A DNA stretch of 34,357 bases, taken from positions 1-34,357 of the forward strand of contig JAOTUO010000003.1 in assembly GCA_029863845.1 (NCBI GenBank), given 5' to 3'. The position numbers and the translations under genes were made by a program. The notes under the pieces were generated by a model, which was given only the letters and a program-made list of their open reading frames with translations, was not told the DNA's origin and made no database searches. The stretch comes from Myxococcales bacterium. Its GTDB lineage: Bacteria > Myxococcota_A > UBA9160 > SMWR01. Positions 10,150-34,357 of this stretch are shown here, in pieces (the stretch's first letter is position 1; the number at the start of each line of letters is the position of its first letter).

Positions 10150-11655
10150 TCAGCGTTCGCGAGCCTCCGCGAGGCGCTGCGCGATCCGGGTGGCCATCGC
10201 CATGATCGTGACCTGCGGGTTCACGCGGGTCGAGGTCGGAAACACGCTCGCGTCCGCGACCCACACTCCCGACGCGCCGTACAGGCGGCCCGTCGGGTCG
10301 ACGGCGGACCGCGCCGGGTCGCTCCCCATGCGGGCGGTGCCCATGGGATGGAACGCCATCAGGTCGAGGTCGGAGGCGCGGACCGCGAGGTGCTCGAGCG
10401 CCTCGGCCTCTGCCATCGAGCGCAGCACGGGCCGCTGGCGGACGCCGGGATGGACCTCGCGGGCGCCGGCGGCGAAGAACACCCGCGCCACGATCGCGAT
10501 GCCGCGCAGCAGACGCCGCGCGTCGTCGCGGTTCATCCGGTACCAGGCCAGCGGGCGGCCGCCCAGCGAGAGGACGCGCCCGCTGGAGGTGTCGCTGATG
10601 AGCGCGCCGAACGAGGCGAGGCGATCGTAAGCGGCCATGCGTTCCTTGTGCACACGCCCGACCCCGGGGACGGCCGGCGCCTGCAGCTCCGGCGGCAGCC
10701 ACATCCCCTGCAGGAAGATGCCCTCCGACTCGAACTCGTGGATGTGGTAGCTCTGGGGAACGCCGGCCCAGGCGCGCACCGGCTCGTCGAAGCGGGCGAG
10801 CACGCGGGTCGCGGGATGGATGCGCAGATGGCGGCCGACGGCGGATCTGCGCCGGGCGAGGCCGCTGCGCGCCAGGAGGACCGGGGTGAGCAGCGCGCCG
10901 GCTGCGACGACGACGCGGGGTGCGCGCACCTCGAACGTCCCCGCCGCTCGCCCGCGCGCGTCGCGTCGCGTCGCGAGCACGCCGCGCACGCGCCGCCCGT
11001 CCATGGCGATCCGATCGACGCGGCAGCGGGCGTAGAGACGCGCGCCGGCGGCTCGCGCCCGCGGCACGTAGGAGACGTTCGTCGACTGCTTGGCGTCGCG
11101 CGGGCACCCGAAGATGCAGACCCCGGTCCCGCGGCAGCCGACCGCGTTGCGCGGGATCGCCTCGCCGCGCAGGCCCAGCGCCTCGGCGCCCCGCCGGATC
11201 CGCTCGTCCCCGGGCCCCCGCAGCGACTCGGGAACCGGAGCGACGCCGATCGCGCTCTCGACGCGTTCGTACTCGACCGCCAGACCCCGATCCACGAGAT
11301 CCGGGATCCCGAACTCGCGCTCCCAGCGGGACAGCACCTCCTGCGGAGCCCGCCAACAGGTTCCCGAGTTGATGACCGTCGTGCCGCCGACGGCGCAGCC
11401 GAGCGGAATCGGGATGTAGGTGTTGCCGATCGTGCCCGTGAGGCCCCGCTGGCGGTAGAGCCGGCGCACCTGCGCGAGGGCGTCCGCCGTGAAGTCGCGA
11501 CGGCCGACGTCTTCGCCCTCCTCGAGCAGCACGACGTCGAGGCCGGCCTCCGCCAGCTCCGCGGCAACGACGGCGCCCCCGGCTCCGGTCCCCACGACCA
11601 CCACCTCCGCGCTATCGCGGAGGATCTCCGGGTCGCGCGCTGCGCTCGCGGTCAC
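10150..11655 (-). CDS. GMC family oxidoreductase
   Basis: VVVVGTGAGGAVVAAELAEAGLDVVLLEEGED, PLGCAVGGTTVINSGTCWR, C-terminal AFHPMGTARMGSDPARSAVDPTGRLYGASGVWVADASVFPTSTRVNPQVTIMAMA. GTG start at 11655 overlaps the upstream stop (GTGA). Confidence 0.9.
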   Translation of the reverse strand: MTASAARDPEILRDSAEVVVVGTGAGGAVVAAELAEAGLDVVLLEEGEDVGRRDFTADALAQVRRLYRQRGLTGTIGNTYIPIPLGCAVGGTTVINSGTCWRAPQEVLSRWEREFGIPDLVDRGLAVEYERVESAIGVAPVPESLRGPGDERIRRGAEALGLRGEAIPRNAVGCRGTGVCIFGCPRDAKQSTNVSYVPRARAAGARLYARCRVDRIAMDGRRVRGVLATRRDARGRAAGTFEVRAPRVVVAAGALLTPVLLARSGLARRRSAVGRHLRIHPATRVLARFDEPVRAWAGVPQSYHIHEFESEGIFLQGMWLPPELQAPAVPGVGRVHKERMAAYDRLASFGALISDTSSGRVLSLGGRPLAWYRMNRDDARRLLRGIAIVARVFFAAGAREVHPGVRQRPVLRSMAEAEALEHLAVRASDLDLMAFHPMGTARMGSDPARSAVDPTGRLYGASGVWVADASVFPTSTRVNPQVTIMAMATRIAQRLAEARER

Positions 11656-25569: not shown

Positions 25570-27735
25570 ATGTCGCATCGGCCAAGGATCGCATTCCCGC
25601 TCGTCGTGCTCGCCTTGCTCGCCGGCGCATCCGTTGCCGCCGCCGCGATCGAGGAGCCCGTCTACACCGAGGACGACTACCAGGAGTTCGACAACGCCGA
25701 CTGCCTGGGCTGTCACGAGGACGAAGAGCTGGAGGCGGACACCGAACGCGGCGAAGGGCTCGAGCTCTACGTGGACGAAGCGATCCTGCGGCACTCGGTT
25801 CACAAGGAGCAGAACTGCACCGGCTGTCACCGGGGCGCGCAGGACTTCGAGGACTCCCCCCACAACGAGGGCGAGCCGCTCGCGCTGAACTGCGCGGGCT
25901 CCGAGTGCCACACCGACGTCGTGTCGGAGTACGACAAGAGCATCCACGGGAAATGGCACGCGAAGGGAGACGAGGAAGCCGCGACCTGCAAGGACTGCCA
26001 CGGCAACCACGCAATCCTGCCTTCTTCGGATCGAAAGTCCAGAACCAACAAGTTCAACCTCCACAAGACCTGCGCCGAGTGTCACGAGAGCGAAGTCGTC
26101 CTCGATTCCCGCCCCATCGATTACGACGCGGCGGTGTCCGACTTCGTCGACTCGATCCACGGGAAGGCGCTGCTGGTGGACGGACTGATCGTGGCTCCGA
26201 CCTGCAATGACTGCCACGGCGTCCACAACATCCTGTCCAAGGAAGACCCGGATTCCAGGGTCAGCAGAGAGATGGTGCCGAAGACCTGCGGCGAGTGTCA
26301 CGTCCTGGTGGAGGGCGTCTTCAACGCGAGCGTCCACGGAATGACCCTCAACTCCCACGACGTCAGCGCCCCGGTCTGCACCACCTGCCATCCCTCGCAC
26401 GTCTCCGAGCTGCCCTCGGGTCTGGAGTTCCGCCTGCACGCGGACCGGATGTGCGGCGATTGTCACGCAGAGCAGCTCGCCGGCTACCGCGACACCTTCC
26501 ACGGCAAGGCGATTGCGCTGGGTCGCCAGGACGTCGCGGCCTGTTACGACTGCCACGGCCACCACGACATCGCCGAGACCCACGATCCAGTCTCGTACAT
26601 CAGCGACGAACGACGGGTGGAGACCTGCAAGAAGTGTCACCCGGCCGCCAACGCGAACTTCGCCCGCTACATGGTCCACGCCAACCACTCCGACCGGGAA
26701 GCCTATCCCCAGCTCTACTACGTCTTCTGGGGCATGACCTGGCTTCTGATCGGAACCTTCGCCTTCTTCGCACTGCACACTCTCCTGTGGCTCTATCGCT
26801 CCATGGCTCTCTACATGAGCGATTCGAGGGAGTGGCGCGACGTGAAGAACCAGGTCCGGGAAGACACCGAAGAGTTCACCCGCTTCACGCCGCTGGACCG
26901 CTTCCTGCACGGCCTGGTCATCGTCAGCTTCCTGCTTCTGGTCATGACGGGAATGCCGCTCAAGTTCTACTACACGGACTGGGCCAAGGTGCTGCTCGGC
27001 GTCATGGGCGGCCAGGCCGTCGCGGCCGTCCTCCACCGCGTGGGAGCCCTGGTCACGATCTTCTACTTCACGGTCCACGTCAGCGCCGTTCTCTACGCGC
27101 TCTTCCAGGGGCGGCGGCGCTTCTTGAATTCGGAGACCGGAAGAATCGACCTCAAGAAGATCGGCGCGGCGCTCACCGGCCCGGATTCTCCGATGCCCGG
27201 CATCCAGGACTTCAAGGACGTCATCGCCCACAACAAGTGGTTCTTCGGGATGGGACCCAAGCCGCAGTTCGACCGCTGGACCTACTGGGAGAAGTTCGAC
27301 TACATGGCGGTCTTCTGGGGCGTGGCGATGATCGGTGCGAGCGGACTGATCATGTGGTTCCCCGAATTCTTCACCCTGCTCCTGCCGGGCTGGTCGATCA
27401 ATGTGGCTCACATCATCCATTCCGACGAGGCGCTGCTGGCGGCCGGCTTCATCTTCACCTTCCATTTCTTCAACGTGCACTTCCGACCCGACAAGTTCCC
27501 GATGGATCCCGTGATGTTCTCCGGCCGAATGTCCAAGTCGGAGCTGATGCACGAGCGCGGGAAGCTGTACGAGCGCTGGGTCGCCGACGGGACACTGGAC
27601 CAGCACCGTGCGGGTCACGAGTGGGATGCCTGGAAGAAGATCGCGCTGCCCGCCGGCTTCATCGCGTTCCTGATCGGCGTCGGCCTGATGATCCTGATCT
27701 ACGTCGCCATGGCGAGCCGCCTTACCGGAGAGTAG
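25570..27735 (+). CDS. Multiheme c-type cytochrome fused to a membrane cytochrome b domain (CbcL-like architecture)
   Basis: Signal peptide MSHRPRIAFPLVVLALLAGASVAAAA; ten CXXCH motifs (CLGCH, CTGCH, CKDCH, CAECH, CNDCH, CGECH, CTTCH, CGDCH, CYDCH, CKKCH) and one CX4CH (CAGSECH); C-terminal TM region with paired His (FLHGLVIVSFLLLVMTG, HRVGALVTIFYFTVHVSA, FTFHFFNVHF). Confidence 0.92.
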   Translation: MSHRPRIAFPLVVLALLAGASVAAAAIEEPVYTEDDYQEFDNADCLGCHEDEELEADTERGEGLELYVDEAILRHSVHKEQNCTGCHRGAQDFEDSPHNEGEPLALNCAGSECHTDVVSEYDKSIHGKWHAKGDEEAATCKDCHGNHAILPSSDRKSRTNKFNLHKTCAECHESEVVLDSRPIDYDAAVSDFVDSIHGKALLVDGLIVAPTCNDCHGVHNILSKEDPDSRVSREMVPKTCGECHVLVEGVFNASVHGMTLNSHDVSAPVCTTCHPSHVSELPSGLEFRLHADRMCGDCHAEQLAGYRDTFHGKAIALGRQDVAACYDCHGHHDIAETHDPVSYISDERRVETCKKCHPAANANFARYMVHANHSDREAYPQLYYVFWGMTWLLIGTFAFFALHTLLWLYRSMALYMSDSREWRDVKNQVREDTEEFTRFTPLDRFLHGLVIVSFLLLVMTGMPLKFYYTDWAKVLLGVMGGQAVAAVLHRVGALVTIFYFTVHVSAVLYALFQGRRRFLNSETGRIDLKKIGAALTGPDSPMPGIQDFKDVIAHNKWFFGMGPKPQFDRWTYWEKFDYMAVFWGVAMIGASGLIMWFPEFFTLLLPGWSINVAHIIHSDEALLAAGFIFTFHFFNVHFRPDKFPMDPVMFSGRMSKSELMHERGKLYERWVADGTLDQHRAGHEWDAWKKIALPAGFIAFLIGVGLMILIYVAMASRLTGE

Positions 27736-27740
27736 TCGCC

Positions 27741-29687
27741 ATGTCGGGCATCGCAGCGCGCAGCAGCACGAGCTTCCTCGAGCCGCGAGTCGCTCTGGCG
27801 GTCTCCGTCCTGCTGCTGCTGGGATGGGTGGGCTTCGCAAAGGCCGCCCAAGCGGATCTCGAAGACGCAGCTCCCGAGGAGGAGATCGAGGCCGAGTCCT
27901 GCGGAGACTGTCACGACGAAGGTCGCGAGGACGCGCCGATCGTCACCCCGGACTTGATCGAGAGCTCCGTACACGAGGACCTGGAGTGTGAAGACTGTCA
28001 CGCCGACGCAGAGGTCGACCTACACGAGCAGCAACTCGATCTCGTCGCGTGCGAAGACTGCCACGAGGACGAAGCGGAGGTCTACGTAAAACACGGAAGG
28101 CTGGCGGTCGGAACGGACGTAGACCTCCCCAGCTGTTCCGACTGCCACGGCACGCACGAAATCCTCGTATCCGACGACGAGGCTTCGCGGGTCCATCCCC
28201 TGAATCTGCCCGATACGTGCGGAAGCTGCCACGAGGACTATGCCCTCACACTGAACCACAAATTCCTCCCGAAGCATCCGGTCGAGACGTACAGGGAGAG
28301 CGTGCACGGCAAGGCGACCTCTGGCGGTCGCTACAAGGCCGCGACCTGCAACGATTGTCATTCCACCGACAATACGGCGCACCGGATCCTCTCTCCGGGT
28401 GATCCGGAATCCACGATCAATCACTTCGCCATTCCCCGGACATGCGGTCGGTGCCACGAAGCCATCGAAAAAGACTACTGGGACGGAATTCATGGGCAGC
28501 TGACTGCGAGGGGGGAGACCGAGTCGCCCGTGTGCACCCACTGTCACGGCGAGCACCGGATCATTTCGCCCGACGATCCGCGCTCGCCCGTCAGCCCCAG
28601 CCACGTGGCGGAGGCGACCTGCGCCCCCTGCCACGAGTCGGCCACACTCAACGAGAAATACGGGATTCCGGCGGGACGCCTGGCTTCCTTCATCGATTCC
28701 TATCACGGATTGAAGAGCAAGGCGGGTGACGTCTCGGTTGCGAATTGCGCCTCGTGTCATGGTGCACACCGGATACTGCCGCATACGGATGAAACCTCGT
28801 CGATCTATGTCGACAATTTGCAGCAGACCTGCGGCGAATGTCATCCGGGCATTTCCGAAGAAATGGCTCAGTCGAAGATCCACGAAATCGGCTGGACGCG
28901 TATGAGCGGCTGGCCCGACTTCTTTGCGGTCATGTACATGATCATGATCACGGTCACCCTCTTCGGGATGCTCCTCTACATCGCTATGGACTTCCGACGG
29001 CAGCTCGGGAAGGTGCTGCGCGCAGAGCAGGTCCGACGCATGACGCGATGGGAGCTCTTGCAGCACACCGGGCTGATGATCGCGTTCCTCGTCATGGTCG
29101 TTACGGGCTTCGCGCTTCGGTTCTCGGACGCGTGGTGGGCGACGCTGCTGTTCGGCAGGGAAGGCGGGTTCCCGCTGCGCAACACGATTCACCGGGCCAC
29201 GGGGGTGATTCTGGTACTGCTGTCGCTGGCGCACCTCTTCTACCTGCGCGGCACCCGAGGACGCGAATTCCTCAGGGATGTCTTTCCTTCGCTGAGCGAT
29301 CTCGTTCAGCTTCGTCAGATGCTCCGGTACAACCTGGGGCTTTCGGACGAGAGGCCGCGCTTTGGCAGGTTCGGCTTCGGTGAGAAGTTCGAGTACTGGG
29401 CGCTGGTGTGGGGAATGGTCATCATGACCGTGACCGGCACGATGCTGTGGTTCGACAACTACTTCGTGAGGATCGTGCCCAAGGGCGTGCTCGACGTGAT
29501 GTTGGTGATCCACTATTACGAGGCGTGGCTGGCGACCATCTCGATCCTGATCTGGCACATGTATTCGACGATCTTCAATCCGGCCGTGTATCCGATGAAT
29601 CCTTCCTGGCTCACCGGCAAGATGCCGGTCGAGCAGTACCGGCATGAGCACCTGGGTGACGAAGTGGACGCCGGATGGCACCTGTGA
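27741..29687 (+). CDS. Second multiheme c-type cytochrome / cytochrome b fusion, paralogous architecture
   Basis: Eleven CXXCH motifs (CGDCH, CEDCH, CEDCH, CSDCH, CGSCH, CNDCH, CGRCH, CTHCH, CAPCH, CASCH, CGECH); C-terminal TM domain LLQHTGLMIAFLVMVVTGFALRF, IHRATGVILVLLSLAHLFYL, IHYYEAWLATISILIWHMYSTIFNPAVYPMNP. Starts 6 bp after the first gene. Confidence 0.92.
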   Translation: MSGIAARSSTSFLEPRVALAVSVLLLLGWVGFAKAAQADLEDAAPEEEIEAESCGDCHDEGREDAPIVTPDLIESSVHEDLECEDCHADAEVDLHEQQLDLVACEDCHEDEAEVYVKHGRLAVGTDVDLPSCSDCHGTHEILVSDDEASRVHPLNLPDTCGSCHEDYALTLNHKFLPKHPVETYRESVHGKATSGGRYKAATCNDCHSTDNTAHRILSPGDPESTINHFAIPRTCGRCHEAIEKDYWDGIHGQLTARGETESPVCTHCHGEHRIISPDDPRSPVSPSHVAEATCAPCHESATLNEKYGIPAGRLASFIDSYHGLKSKAGDVSVANCASCHGAHRILPHTDETSSIYVDNLQQTCGECHPGISEEMAQSKIHEIGWTRMSGWPDFFAVMYMIMITVTLFGMLLYIAMDFRRQLGKVLRAEQVRRMTRWELLQHTGLMIAFLVMVVTGFALRFSDAWWATLLFGREGGFPLRNTIHRATGVILVLLSLAHLFYLRGTRGREFLRDVFPSLSDLVQLRQMLRYNLGLSDERPRFGRFGFGEKFEYWALVWGMVIMTVTGTMLWFDNYFVRIVPKGVLDVMLVIHYYEAWLATISILIWHMYSTIFNPAVYPMNPSWLTGKMPVEQYRHEHLGDEVDAGWHL

Positions 29688-30081
29688 CCGGGACGCTGGC
29701 ACGCGACCTCGAATAGCCGAGGCCAACGAGGTGTCCGCGAGCAGCCGTGTCCCACGCGCGGCCGAGGACCTACACCGGAACAGCAGTCTGCGGGCTCCCT
29801 GGGATGAGGGGTGGCTCGCTCGGGGCGAGCGCCCGACGCAGTCGCGGACTGTGTCGATTCGCCCGCCGGACTGTAGAGGCACACCCCAGGCAGCGCCCCT
29901 GCGGTGCAGGCCCGGCAGCCTGCGCGCACCGTCCCGTAGCACTGTGTTTTCAGGCAGTTAGAGATTCGATGCGATGGGTACGAGCGGTGGTATGGCTCTT
30001 GCAATACGCGAAGGACGGCTGGCGGCGGGCGATGGCGCTCGTCCGTGCGGGCCGGTGCGGGTCTTCCACGAGGCACGCCTC

Positions 30082-30204
30082 ATGGTTGCCATCTTCGTCG
30101 TCCTGTTGATCCTCGGGCTGGTCGCCATCGACGCGGCTCTCCAGCTGAGAAAGCGGCGTCGGGAGCAGCGGGCGATTTCGCCCGATCTCTCTCGAGACCG
30201 CTAG
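30082..30204 (+). CDS. Small single-TM protein (40 aa)
   Basis: MVAIFVVLLILGLVAIDAALQLRKRRREQRAISPDLSRDR: one hydrophobic helix then a basic tail; cgagg Shine-Dalgarno-like sequence just upstream. Longer in-frame start at 29974 judged less likely. Confidence 0.5.
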   Translation: MVAIFVVLLILGLVAIDAALQLRKRRREQRAISPDLSRDR

Positions 30205-30262
30205 CCGGGCCCGCAAGCGTCCCCGCCGTCCGCGAGCCGGGCGGGAGTACGACACGTCCCGG

Positions 30263-30287
30263 CCGCTCCCGTCGACGACGGGAGCGG
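30263..30287. other. Long perfect stem-loop upstream of the ferredoxin gene
   Basis: CCGCTCCCGTC-GAC-GACGGGAGCGG: 11-bp perfect stem, 3-nt loop; no T-tract. Confidence 0.6.
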
Positions 30288-30354
30288 ACGCGTCCATGCG
30301 TACGTGCGGAGCCGCATCGCAGGCCTGTGACGGACGCGGGAGGAGGCGAGTGCG

Positions 30355-31181: not shown

Positions 31182-32801
31182 ATGAAGCGGCTCTGGTCTG
31201 TCCTGAGCTTCTGGAGGGTGCTGGCCGCCGCGGTCGCGGGCATCGGGATCTGGGCCACGGTGGTCCGCTTCACCCAGGGACTGGGAGCGGCCACGAACCT
31301 GTCGGATCAGTTCCCCTGGGGCCTCTGGATCGGCTTCGACCTGCTGGTGGGAGTGGCGCTGGCCGCCGGCGGATTCACCATCACCGCGACGGTCTACATC
31401 TTCAATCTAGAGCGCTTCAGGCCCATCGTCCGTCCTACGGTGCTGACGGCATTCCTCGGGTACCTGCTGGTCATCTTCGCCCTGCTGTTCGACCTGGGCC
31501 GTCCCTACCGGATCTGGCATCCGCTGATCATGTGGAATACCCGCTCGGCGCTGTTCGAGGTGGCCTGGTGCGTAATGCTCTACACGACGGTCCTGGCCCT
31601 CGAGTTCAGCCCCATGCTGCTGGAGCGCCTGAGGTTGGAGAAGCCCGCGCGGATCATCCGGGGGCTTTCGGTTCCGCTCGTCATCGTGGGGGTGCTGCTT
31701 TCCACCCTGCATCAGTCCTCGTTGGGCACGCTGTTCGTGATCGTCCCCGAGAAGATGCACGGCCTCTGGTACACGCCCATGCTGCCCGTGGCCTTCTTCG
31801 TGAGCGCCATCGCCGCCGGCCTGAGCATGGTCATCGTGGAGTCCTTCATCAGCGCGCGAGCTTTCGGCCGGCGGCTCGAACACGATCTACTGGAGGACGT
31901 GGGTCGGGCGATCGTGGTGGTGCTGGCGCTCTACTCGATCATCAAGCTACAGGATCTGCTCATCCGGGGGGTCGCTGATCTCCTCTTCGTGCGGTCTCCC
32001 GAGTCGCTCCTGTTCCAGGTAGAGCTGGTCTTCGGGGTCGTGCTGCCCATGATCATGTTCTCCGTGCCCATGGTGCGGCGAAACCGTGGCGGTCTGTTCG
32101 TCGCAGCCCTACTGGTCGTTGTGGGACTCATCCTGAATCGGCTCAACGTGTGCATCACCGGCATGCAGGGTGCCATGGGGCAGGACTATTTCCTGGAGCC
32201 CGGCATGGAAACGGCTTATTTCCCCTCCCTGCTGGAGCTGTCCGTGACGGGATTCCTGGTGGTCATGGGCTGCGTGGGCTTCACGCTGGCCGCCAGGTTC
32301 CTGGAGGTCTTCCCGGAATCCCCTGGTCTGGATGGCGATTACGAGGCGGCGCGGATCGAAGTGCAGACCCATCCGTGGGTGCGCTGGGTCTCCAGGGGCG
32401 TACTCGTAGCCCTGGCGATCGTGTTGGTCGAGGGTGCCGTCACCTTCGACTTCAGCAGCTTCGGTGGGGAGCGCGCCGGGCCCGCGATGCTCATGTCCGC
32501 ACCGACGAACCGGCTGGTGCTTCGGCTACCGCCGGACATGTCGTACCCACCGGGCGAAGAGAGTCCCGGCGTGGTCGAGTTCAGCCATGCGATGCACGTC
32601 GATGCGGAAGAGCCCGACTGTGCCGCGTGTCACCGAGAGGCCTTTCCGCTGGTGCGGCGGGCGGGCATGATCGTGCCGCGGATGACCTGGTCGGGCGAGC
32701 AGCTTCACGAGCAGGGCTGGTGCGGAATGTGCCATGACGGAGACGAGTCCTTTTCCGTCGAGGACGAGGAAGAGTGCGGCAGCTGCCACTTCGAGCCATG
32801 A
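31182..32801 (+). CDS. NrfD/PsrC/HybB-like membrane subunit fused to a C-terminal triheme cytochrome c7-type domain
   Basis: HybB-like FPWGLWIGFDLLVGVALAAGGFTITATVYIF, LGRPYRIWHPLIMWNTRSALFEVAWCVMLY, STLHQSSLGTLFVIVPEKMHGLWYTPMLPVAFFVSA, NRLNVCITGM; C-terminal FSHAMHVDAEEPDCAACHREAF...GWCGMCHDGDESFSVEDEEECGSCHFEP. Confidence 0.9.
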   Translation: MKRLWSVLSFWRVLAAAVAGIGIWATVVRFTQGLGAATNLSDQFPWGLWIGFDLLVGVALAAGGFTITATVYIFNLERFRPIVRPTVLTAFLGYLLVIFALLFDLGRPYRIWHPLIMWNTRSALFEVAWCVMLYTTVLALEFSPMLLERLRLEKPARIIRGLSVPLVIVGVLLSTLHQSSLGTLFVIVPEKMHGLWYTPMLPVAFFVSAIAAGLSMVIVESFISARAFGRRLEHDLLEDVGRAIVVVLALYSIIKLQDLLIRGVADLLFVRSPESLLFQVELVFGVVLPMIMFSVPMVRRNRGGLFVAALLVVVGLILNRLNVCITGMQGAMGQDYFLEPGMETAYFPSLLELSVTGFLVVMGCVGFTLAARFLEVFPESPGLDGDYEAARIEVQTHPWVRWVSRGVLVALAIVLVEGAVTFDFSSFGGERAGPAMLMSAPTNRLVLRLPPDMSYPPGEESPGVVEFSHAMHVDAEEPDCAACHREAFPLVRRAGMIVPRMTWSGEQLHEQGWCGMCHDGDESFSVEDEEECGSCHFEP

Positions 32802-34357
32802 GCGCGGTCATCCAGATCTCGAACGTACTGCTCGTTGCAGCACGGCTGGGTCGCATCATCCTCGCGGTCGTTGCGGCGGTCGTGGGGCTCGGCGTCGCGC
32901 CGTCGTCCTCTCTCGGAGAGCTGCCGCCGGAACCTGGCGATGGCCACGTCACCCGTCGCGATGAGCAGACGGCATCCGTGGCGCGTGACGACGTGCGGCG
33001 GCGCGCGCCGATCACCGCGGATGACCGCGTGACCACCGACGAAGGCAGGGTCGTCGACATCGCCGTGCTGGCCAATGACCGCGATCCCGACGGCGGTGTC
33101 CTGAGGGTGGTGGGCGTAACGAAGGCCGTGAACGGCTGGGTGCTGGTCAACGGAGATCACACGCTCCGGTACCAGCCCAACACCGGGTTCACCGGCCTGG
33201 ACGGCTTCGCCTACACGGTTGCTGACGAGCACGGAGGGAAGGCGACTGCGACGGTTCGCGTCGAGGTGAACGACGTCGCCGACGCCCCGGTCGCCGAGAA
33301 TCAGGTCGTCGAGACGGACGAGGACACGCCGCTGGCGATTGCGTTGGTGGCGAGCGACGCGGATGGCGATCGGCTGACGTTCACGATCGAGAGAGCACCG
33401 GAGCACGGCTCGCTGATCGGAATGCCTCCCGACTGGTCCTACGTCCCGGATGCCGAATACAGCGGGCCGGACAGATTCGTGTTCGCGGTGGACGATGGGC
33501 ACGGCGGGAGCGACACCGGCACGGTGTCGATCACGATCGATGCCGTCGATGACGTGCCCGAGGCAGTGGACGACGAGGCGGTGACGCGCGAAGGCATGGT
33601 CGTCGACATCGCCGTGCTGGCCAACGACCGCGACCCCGATGGCGGTGTCCTGAGAGTGGTGGGCGTAACAAAGGCCGTGAACGGCTGGGTGCTGGTCAAC
33701 GGAGATCACACGCTCCGGTACCAGCCCAACACCGGGTTCACCGGCCGGGACGGCTTCGCCTACACGGTGGATGACGGCCACGGCGGGAAGGCGACTGCGA
33801 GCGTCAGCGTCGAGGTGAACGACGTCGCCGACGCCCCGGTCGCCGAGAACCAGGCCGTCGCAACGGATGAGGACACGGCGCTGACGATTGCGTTGGTGGC
33901 GAGCGACGCGGATGGCGATCGGCTGACATTCACGATCGAGAGACCCCCGGCGCACGGCTCGCTGATCGGAGCGCCTCCGGACTTGTCCTACGTCCCGGAG
34001 GCCGACTACAGCGGGCCGGACAGATTCGTCTTCGCGGTGGACGATGGGCACGGCGGGAGCGACACGGGGACGGTGTCGATCGCGATCGATGCCGTCGATG
34101 ACGCGCCCGAGGCGGTGGACGACGAGGCGGTGACGAGAGAAGGCATGGTCGTCGACATCGCCGTGCTGGCGAATGACCGCGATCCCGACGGCGGTGTCCT
34201 GAGGGTGGTGGGCGTCACCCAGGCCGTGAACGGTTGGGTGGTGGTCAACGGCGATCACACGCTTCGATACCAGCCCAACACCGGGTTCACCGGCCTGGAC
34301 GGCTTCGCCTACAGGATTGCTGACGTCGATGGCGGGATGGACACGGCGGCGGTCGGC
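32798..34357 (+). CDS. Cadherin/Ig-like (Big_9/VCBS-type) tandem-repeat surface protein, truncated by window edge
   Basis: Open frame of 520 codons with no stop, starting in an ATGA overlap with the previous gene. Repeated VVDIAVLANDRDPDGGVLRVVGVTKAVNGWVLVNGDHTLRYQPNTGFTGLDGFAYTVAD and TDEDTPLAIALVASDADGDRLTFTIERAPEHGSLIG...YSGPDRFVFAVDDGHGGSDTGTVSI. Absent from the ORF track. Confidence 0.92.
   Translation, partial: MSAVIQISNVLLVAARLGRIILAVVAAVVGLGVAPSSSLGELPPEPGDGHVTRRDEQTASVARDDVRRRAPITADDRVTTDEGRVVDIAVLANDRDPDGGVLRVVGVTKAVNGWVLVNGDHTLRYQPNTGFTGLDGFAYTVADEHGGKATATVRVEVNDVADAPVAENQVVETDEDTPLAIALVASDADGDRLTFTIERAPEHGSLIGMPPDWSYVPDAEYSGPDRFVFAVDDGHGGSDTGTVSITIDAVDDVPEAVDDEAVTREGMVVDIAVLANDRDPDGGVLRVVGVTKAVNGWVLVNGDHTLRYQPNTGFTGRDGFAYTVDDGHGGKATASVSVEVNDVADAPVAENQAVATDEDTALTIALVASDADGDRLTFTIERPPAHGSLIGAPPDLSYVPEADYSGPDRFVFAVDDGHGGSDTGTVSIAIDAVDDAPEAVDDEAVTREGMVVDIAVLANDRDPDGGVLRVVGVTQAVNGWVVVNGDHTLRYQPNTGFTGLDGFAYRIADVDGGMDTAAVG
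33050..34357 (+). repeat. In-frame tandem DNA repeat, 549-bp period (183 aa)
   Basis: The sequence gtcgtcgacatcgccgtgctgg occurs at 33050, 33599 and 34148, exactly 549 bp apart; long near-identical stretches between units by eye. Confidence 0.92.

Follow-up and report, generated by a model that had tools for sequence, protein, structure and literature searches.

The stretch of DNA analysed here (the window; contig C412 in its entirety, 34,357 bp, from the genome labelled G000) ends within a gene for an exported, five-domain Ig/cadherin-like repeat protein that directly follows the gene for the NrfD-type membrane subunit of a multihaem redox cluster, and the same order is found in a genome of another genus of the same family (G004). 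We give an even chance to the reading that the protein is a Sec-exported, soluble rod of five Ca2+-binding-type beta-sandwich domains which, without redox activity of its own, assists an Hmc/Cbc-type quinol:cytochrome complex, where Hmc/Cbc-type denotes a working likeness and not membership, as HmcB and HmcC score below their cut-offs and the likeness to CbcL is one of layout only. The observations behind this reading are direct: the N-terminus is of the export type, there are five domains and no haem site, the gene comes after hmcC-c7, and it occurs in two genera.

Table 1. Features of the redox cluster and of the repeat gene at the 3' end of the window (window positions).
Feature	Position	Strand	Basis
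Membrane multihaem cytochrome (cyt1), 10 CxxCH + one CX4CH, fused b561/FdnI-type domain, CbcL-like layout	25570–27735	+	Motif count, family matches
Membrane multihaem cytochrome (cyt2), 11 CxxCH, fused b561/FdnI-type domain, CbcL-like layout	27741–29687	+	Motif count, family matches
HmcB/HybA-like iron-sulphur subunit, one C-terminal membrane segment	30355–31176	+	Pfam/NCBIfam
HmcC/HybB-like NrfD membrane subunit fused to periplasmic triheme c7 (3 CxxCH)	31182–32801	+	Pfam/NCBIfam; start also possible at in-frame GTG 31173
Exported five-domain Ig/cadherin-like (tandem-95/Big_9) repeat protein	32798–34357	+	Translation, Pfam/NCBIfam, G004 homologue with stop
N-terminal export signal (hydrophobic, residues about 4–35)	32798–32914	+	Hydropathy, structure model; cleavage site inferred
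Domain A1, 93 aa	33005–33283	+	Repeat alignment, structure model
Domain B1, 90 aa	33284–33553	+	Repeat alignment
Domain A2, 93 aa	33554–33832	+	Repeat alignment
Domain B2, 90 aa	33833–34102	+	Repeat alignment
Domain A3, 85 aa, cut a few residues short by the contig end	34103–34357	+	Repeat alignment

The redox cluster occupies the last nine kilobases of the window on the + strand (Table 1). In both cytochromes the haem part is followed by Ni_hydr_CYTB matches and about 4–6 hydrophobic segments, which gives the CbcL-type layout of an N-terminal multihaem part and a C-terminal b-type membrane domain of ~six helices; the comparison is of layout only and involved no sequence test against CbcL. Cytochromes of the CbcL/MtrH/MtoC type, from Geobacter and others, likewise combine a big N-terminal multihaem part with a b-type, FdnI-like membrane part (PMC6295460, PMC9129911). 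Unlike these, the cytochromes of the window are two in tandem with 11 haem motifs each (one of them the CX4CH motif, at residue 108 of cyt1) and come with no detected MtrB-type porin: no MtrB/PioB-type outer-membrane porin scored over its cut-off in G000 or G004, so extracellular electron transfer is no more than a possibility. The tandem cyt1-cyt2 pair is kept in G004 and in G016; the corresponding contig of G014 begins inside cyt1.

The two subunits encoded next resemble the Hmc complex (HmcA-F) of sulphate reducers, HybA-HybB and NrfD-type systems, in which an HmcB/HybA-like Fe-S protein is likewise followed by an HmcC/HybB-like NrfD protein. HmcB and HmcC are their best NCBIfam families yet fall below the equivalog cut-offs (252.9 bits versus 420 for HmcB, 355.6 versus 550 for HmcC). 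The locus further differs from the Hmc complex in that its HmcC carries a fused triheme c7 and in that two b/c cytochromes stand in place of a separate HmcA-type subunit, and it includes a repeat protein as an addition. Between cyt1-cyt2 and the hmcB-hmcC-repeat gene series lies a gap of 667 bp (29688–30354; about 560 bp at the same place in G004), so the cluster probably consists of two transcription units.

The ATG of the repeat gene at 32798 overlaps the TGA of the NrfD-triheme ORF at 32799–32801 (ATGA), and its frame is open for 520 codons up to the contig end at base 34357, both as an earlier sequence-only reading of the window had described. From this overlap we infer translational coupling of HmcC-triheme and the repeat gene. 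The co-translation with the redox genes proposed by the sequence-only reading can therefore stand for HmcC, while the 667-bp gap upstream of hmcB leaves the two b/c cytochromes out of it. The G004 repeat gene also has the ATGA overlap, with two more candidate starts at most 40 nt away that make the start ambiguous across a contig gap. A gene-calling artefact was ruled out, as the frame is open and its codon usage coding-like. The G000 assembly is fragmented (467 contigs, 4.1 Mb), and DNA and protein searches found the missing 3' part of the gene on no other G000 contig. The contig end breaks the ORF within a 549-nt repeat; such repeats often interrupt short-read assemblies, which is probably why C412 stops here.

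The protein consists of a hydrophobic N-terminus, a short linker and then domains in the order A-B-A-B-A. The G004 counterpart of the export signal ends in SLFLGFAVPESGHA, with cleavage probably falling before the Q that follows, and in a full-length structure model made without an alignment (pLDDT 34) helix 3–31 is the sole part above 70. The A-B unit has a 549-nt period with copies 90–93% identical, and B domains are ~30% identical to A domains. Pfam identifies five Big_9/Cadherin domains (E 3.7e-107, far above chance), the families matched overall being tandem-95, Big_9, Cadherin_4 and Cadherin_5 (NF012211, PF17963, PF17803, PF17892). Both NF012211 tandem-95 (282.6 bits, cut-off 90) and PF17963 Big_9 (351.9 bits, cut-off 23.6) are matched over five stretches, and the protein belongs to each. 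Indeed, the earlier recognition of a cadherin/Ig-like repeat protein in a redox locus was correct, the upstream redox genes being real and the arrangement being kept in G004. An additional Pfam match, to eRF1_1, is spurious, no single stretch of it passing alone. A PDB sequence search gave no match. Modelling of domain A from the window's own repeats yielded a beta-sandwich (pLDDT 88 for the best of five models, the other four being poor), with which Foldseek retrieved PDB entries of Ig/cadherin-type fold and modules of bacterial adhesins such as SraP, Rib and FrhA; sequence identity was low in every case. Each G000 domain contains one putative Ca2+ motif, NDRDPDG in the three A domains and DADGD in the two B domains, and the pI is about 4.1. 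As far as it is sequenced in G000, the protein contains no haem motif (CxxCH), cysteine, RTX repeat, LPxTG or C-terminal membrane segment; with no CxxCH, a haem-binding repeat protein is ruled out.

The length of the protein can be judged from its G004 homologue (contig C48), whose 3' end is complete and which is 65% identical over residues 39–519, aligning without gaps over all five domains. The homologue stops directly after domain 5, 7 residues further on than the truncated G000 sequence. The full-length G000 protein thus probably has about 527 aa and a mature mass of about 50 kDa; the piece of the gene missing from the G000 assembly could hold a different number of repeats. Domain A3 diverges from A1 and A2 at its end, as expected of a terminal copy. 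A protein of this length is probably no giant adhesin, contrary to its description as large. The term surface-type fares no better: the complete G004 C-terminus has no outer-membrane anchor, membrane segment, sortase, RTX/T1SS, LPxTG or other C-terminal signal. Of the features that the sequence-only reading had proposed to look for, haem motifs were not found in the partial G000 protein, and sorting or T1SS signals neither there nor in the G004 C-terminus. NF045619 scores 47 bits, below its cut-off of 180. A large T1SS/RTX adhesin of the Bap/LapF/RTX type was rejected, as the G004 protein ends after domain 5 without a secretion or anchor domain; the C-terminus in G000 lies off the contig.

In G004 the locus spans two contigs. 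C326 carries the end of cyt1, cyt2, HmcB and HmcC-triheme (85, 72, 78 and 77–78% identical to G000, respectively) and ends 68 nt past the HmcC-triheme stop, and the first bases of C48 already lie within the repeat gene's signal peptide; the join is made from contig ends that do not overlap. By a simple estimate, two properly oriented contig ends would be placed there by accident with a probability of about 1e-4. Past the repeat gene, C48 encodes a short membrane protein, part of which looks like a coiled coil, termed HmcD-like from its N-terminal motif and position and not from a family model; the motif matches the protein directly 3' of HmcC in two other genomes (G051 contig C1, G016 contig C179), and the protein may add to the likeness to the Hmc complex. 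hmcB and hmcC are contiguous, and the HmcD-like gene after the repeat gene is seen in G004 alone, across the contig gap. As it lies between hmcC and the HmcD-like gene, the repeat gene of G004 is inside the electron-transfer locus and not beside it, and retention of the arrangement in a second genus indicates that it is not an annotation accident. The linkage is supported by two genomes, with the downstream side absent from G000, where we found no HmcD-like gene, regulator orthologue or second HmcC. Downstream of the HmcD-like gene, C48 carries a convergent sigma54 response regulator and a histidine kinase and then overlaps by 200 bp (1 mismatch) with contig C122, which holds a second HmcB-HmcC pair. 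The kinase and sigma54 regulator, situated between two HmcB-HmcC modules (L042/L019, C48/C122) and convergent with the repeat operon, are a candidate dedicated regulator.

As an accessory, the repeat protein would be produced along with HmcC and would act either within the periplasm or immediately outside the cell, where Ca2+ bound at the NDRDPDG and DADGD sites would stiffen the rod. The rod might then hold or space the periplasmic haem domains of neighbouring cytochromes with respect to one another, to the cell wall or to some partner further downstream. The position of the repeat gene after hmcC-c7, and in G004 before the hmcD-like gene, would favour such a role. Against it, the HmcC-c7 clusters of G051, G127 and G247 lack the repeat gene, suggesting that the machinery generally runs without it and that it is dispensable; moreover, adhesins often contain Big_9/tandem-95 repeats, and sequence cannot tell the periplasm from the outside.

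An adhesin, secreted or at the surface, by which the cell is fixed to a partner cell or to an electron acceptor or donor outside it was the hypothesis of the sequence-only reading, and we consider it somewhat unlikely. The repeat families are the same as in tandem-95/Big_9 and bacterial cadherin-like adhesins, of which such repeats are typical, and adhesion domains occur alongside multihaem electron-transfer cytochromes in syntrophic bacteria, namely the partners of ANME (PMC10553843) and a Prosthecochloris/Desulfuromonas mixture (PMC7762298). The tandem-95 adhesin of the latter, however, has 2417 aa or more, whereas the protein considered here has about 527 aa in only five domains, sits within a redox locus, and lacks a C-terminal anchor or secretion signal, a ligand-binding head domain and RTX repeats; the lack of an over-threshold porin in either genome also argues against an adhesin. 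That the protein attaches the cell to a mineral, an electrode or another cell is thus possible but unsupported, and none of its features points to the outside of the cell over the periplasm.

A more specific form of the accessory reading, in which the cadherin-like five-bead rod is a dedicated structural subunit determining how far the complex's periplasmic haem domains reach or where they sit, appears unlikely. We found no description in the literature of a non-redox scaffold of such a kind for this class of complexes, and what is reported for cadherin/tandem-95 proteins encoded with such operons is general co-occurrence only. Little is known about how multihaem inner-membrane complexes are placed relative to the wall, the outer membrane or partner cells. 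If dedicated, an Ig/cadherin-like protein inside such an operon would offer a simple handle on whether a structural spacer or an adhesin is required for electron transfer; if a bystander, it would be an ordinary repeat protein at an unusual site.

How far the linkage extends bears on the bystander case, in which the repeat gene was inserted 3' of hmcC in an ancestor of the two genera and is co-transcribed yet functionally unrelated. Conservation of the linkage, which the sequence-only reading had set beforehand as its refutation test, holds inside the family and fails beyond it: the repeat gene follows HmcC-triheme in both HmcB-HmcC-c7 clusters of the window organism's family (G000, G004) and is missing from all three out-of-family HmcC-c7 clusters, whose HmcC-triheme is 50–56% identical (G051, G127, G247), so the association is confined to one family. 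The family's genus g11 (G014, G016) has cyt1-cyt2 at about 70–78% identity, followed by a four-haem cytochrome; the contigs concerned carry neither HmcC-triheme nor the repeat gene, HmcB-HmcC being lacking in both clusters. Among 377 genomes of the phylum there was no further close full-length relative of the repeat protein, and viral contigs held no relatives. This absence from every HmcC-c7 cluster outside the family and from the g11 clusters, together with a linkage backed by two genomes only, would fit a bystander. We nevertheless find a bystander quite improbable, as the G004 gene lies between hmcC and the hmcD-like gene, inside the unit and not at its edge, and as frame, domain number and order are intact at about 35% protein divergence.

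The repeats themselves (33041–34353 in the window) are homogenised within each genome by concerted evolution. Copies of A are 79–85% identical within G000, 67–83% within G004 and 68–73% between the genomes, and copies of B are 88% identical within G000, 81% within G004 and 58–68% between them. That the copies are homogenised yet their number and A-B-A-B-A order are unchanged hints that length matters, two genomes being few. A further and quite improbable explanation, a periplasm-spanning measuring rod that sets the distance from the inner-membrane complex to an outer-membrane partner, draws on exactly five domains kept ungapped between genera at only 65% identity despite this homogenisation, which suggests selection on length, and on a length of roughly 20 nm, at about 4 nm per domain, which is close to how wide a Gram-negative periplasm is, but neither end has a membrane anchor or cell-wall-binding domain, the domain lengths are generic figures and two genomes are few.

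In the three out-of-family clusters the gene that follows HmcC-triheme is, by names taken from reading the translations, archaemetzincin-like (G051), GcvH-like (G127) or uvrB (G247). The archaemetzincin-like ORF of G051 (L027, about 10250–10945) carries the zinc motif HELGHVFGLGHCxxxxCVM. GcvH (lipoyl-domain)-like proteins adjoin HmcC in both G051 (L037, about 10180–10880) and G127 (L049, 10848–11603), the GcvH-like part in G051 being fused to an HmcD-like membrane N-terminus.
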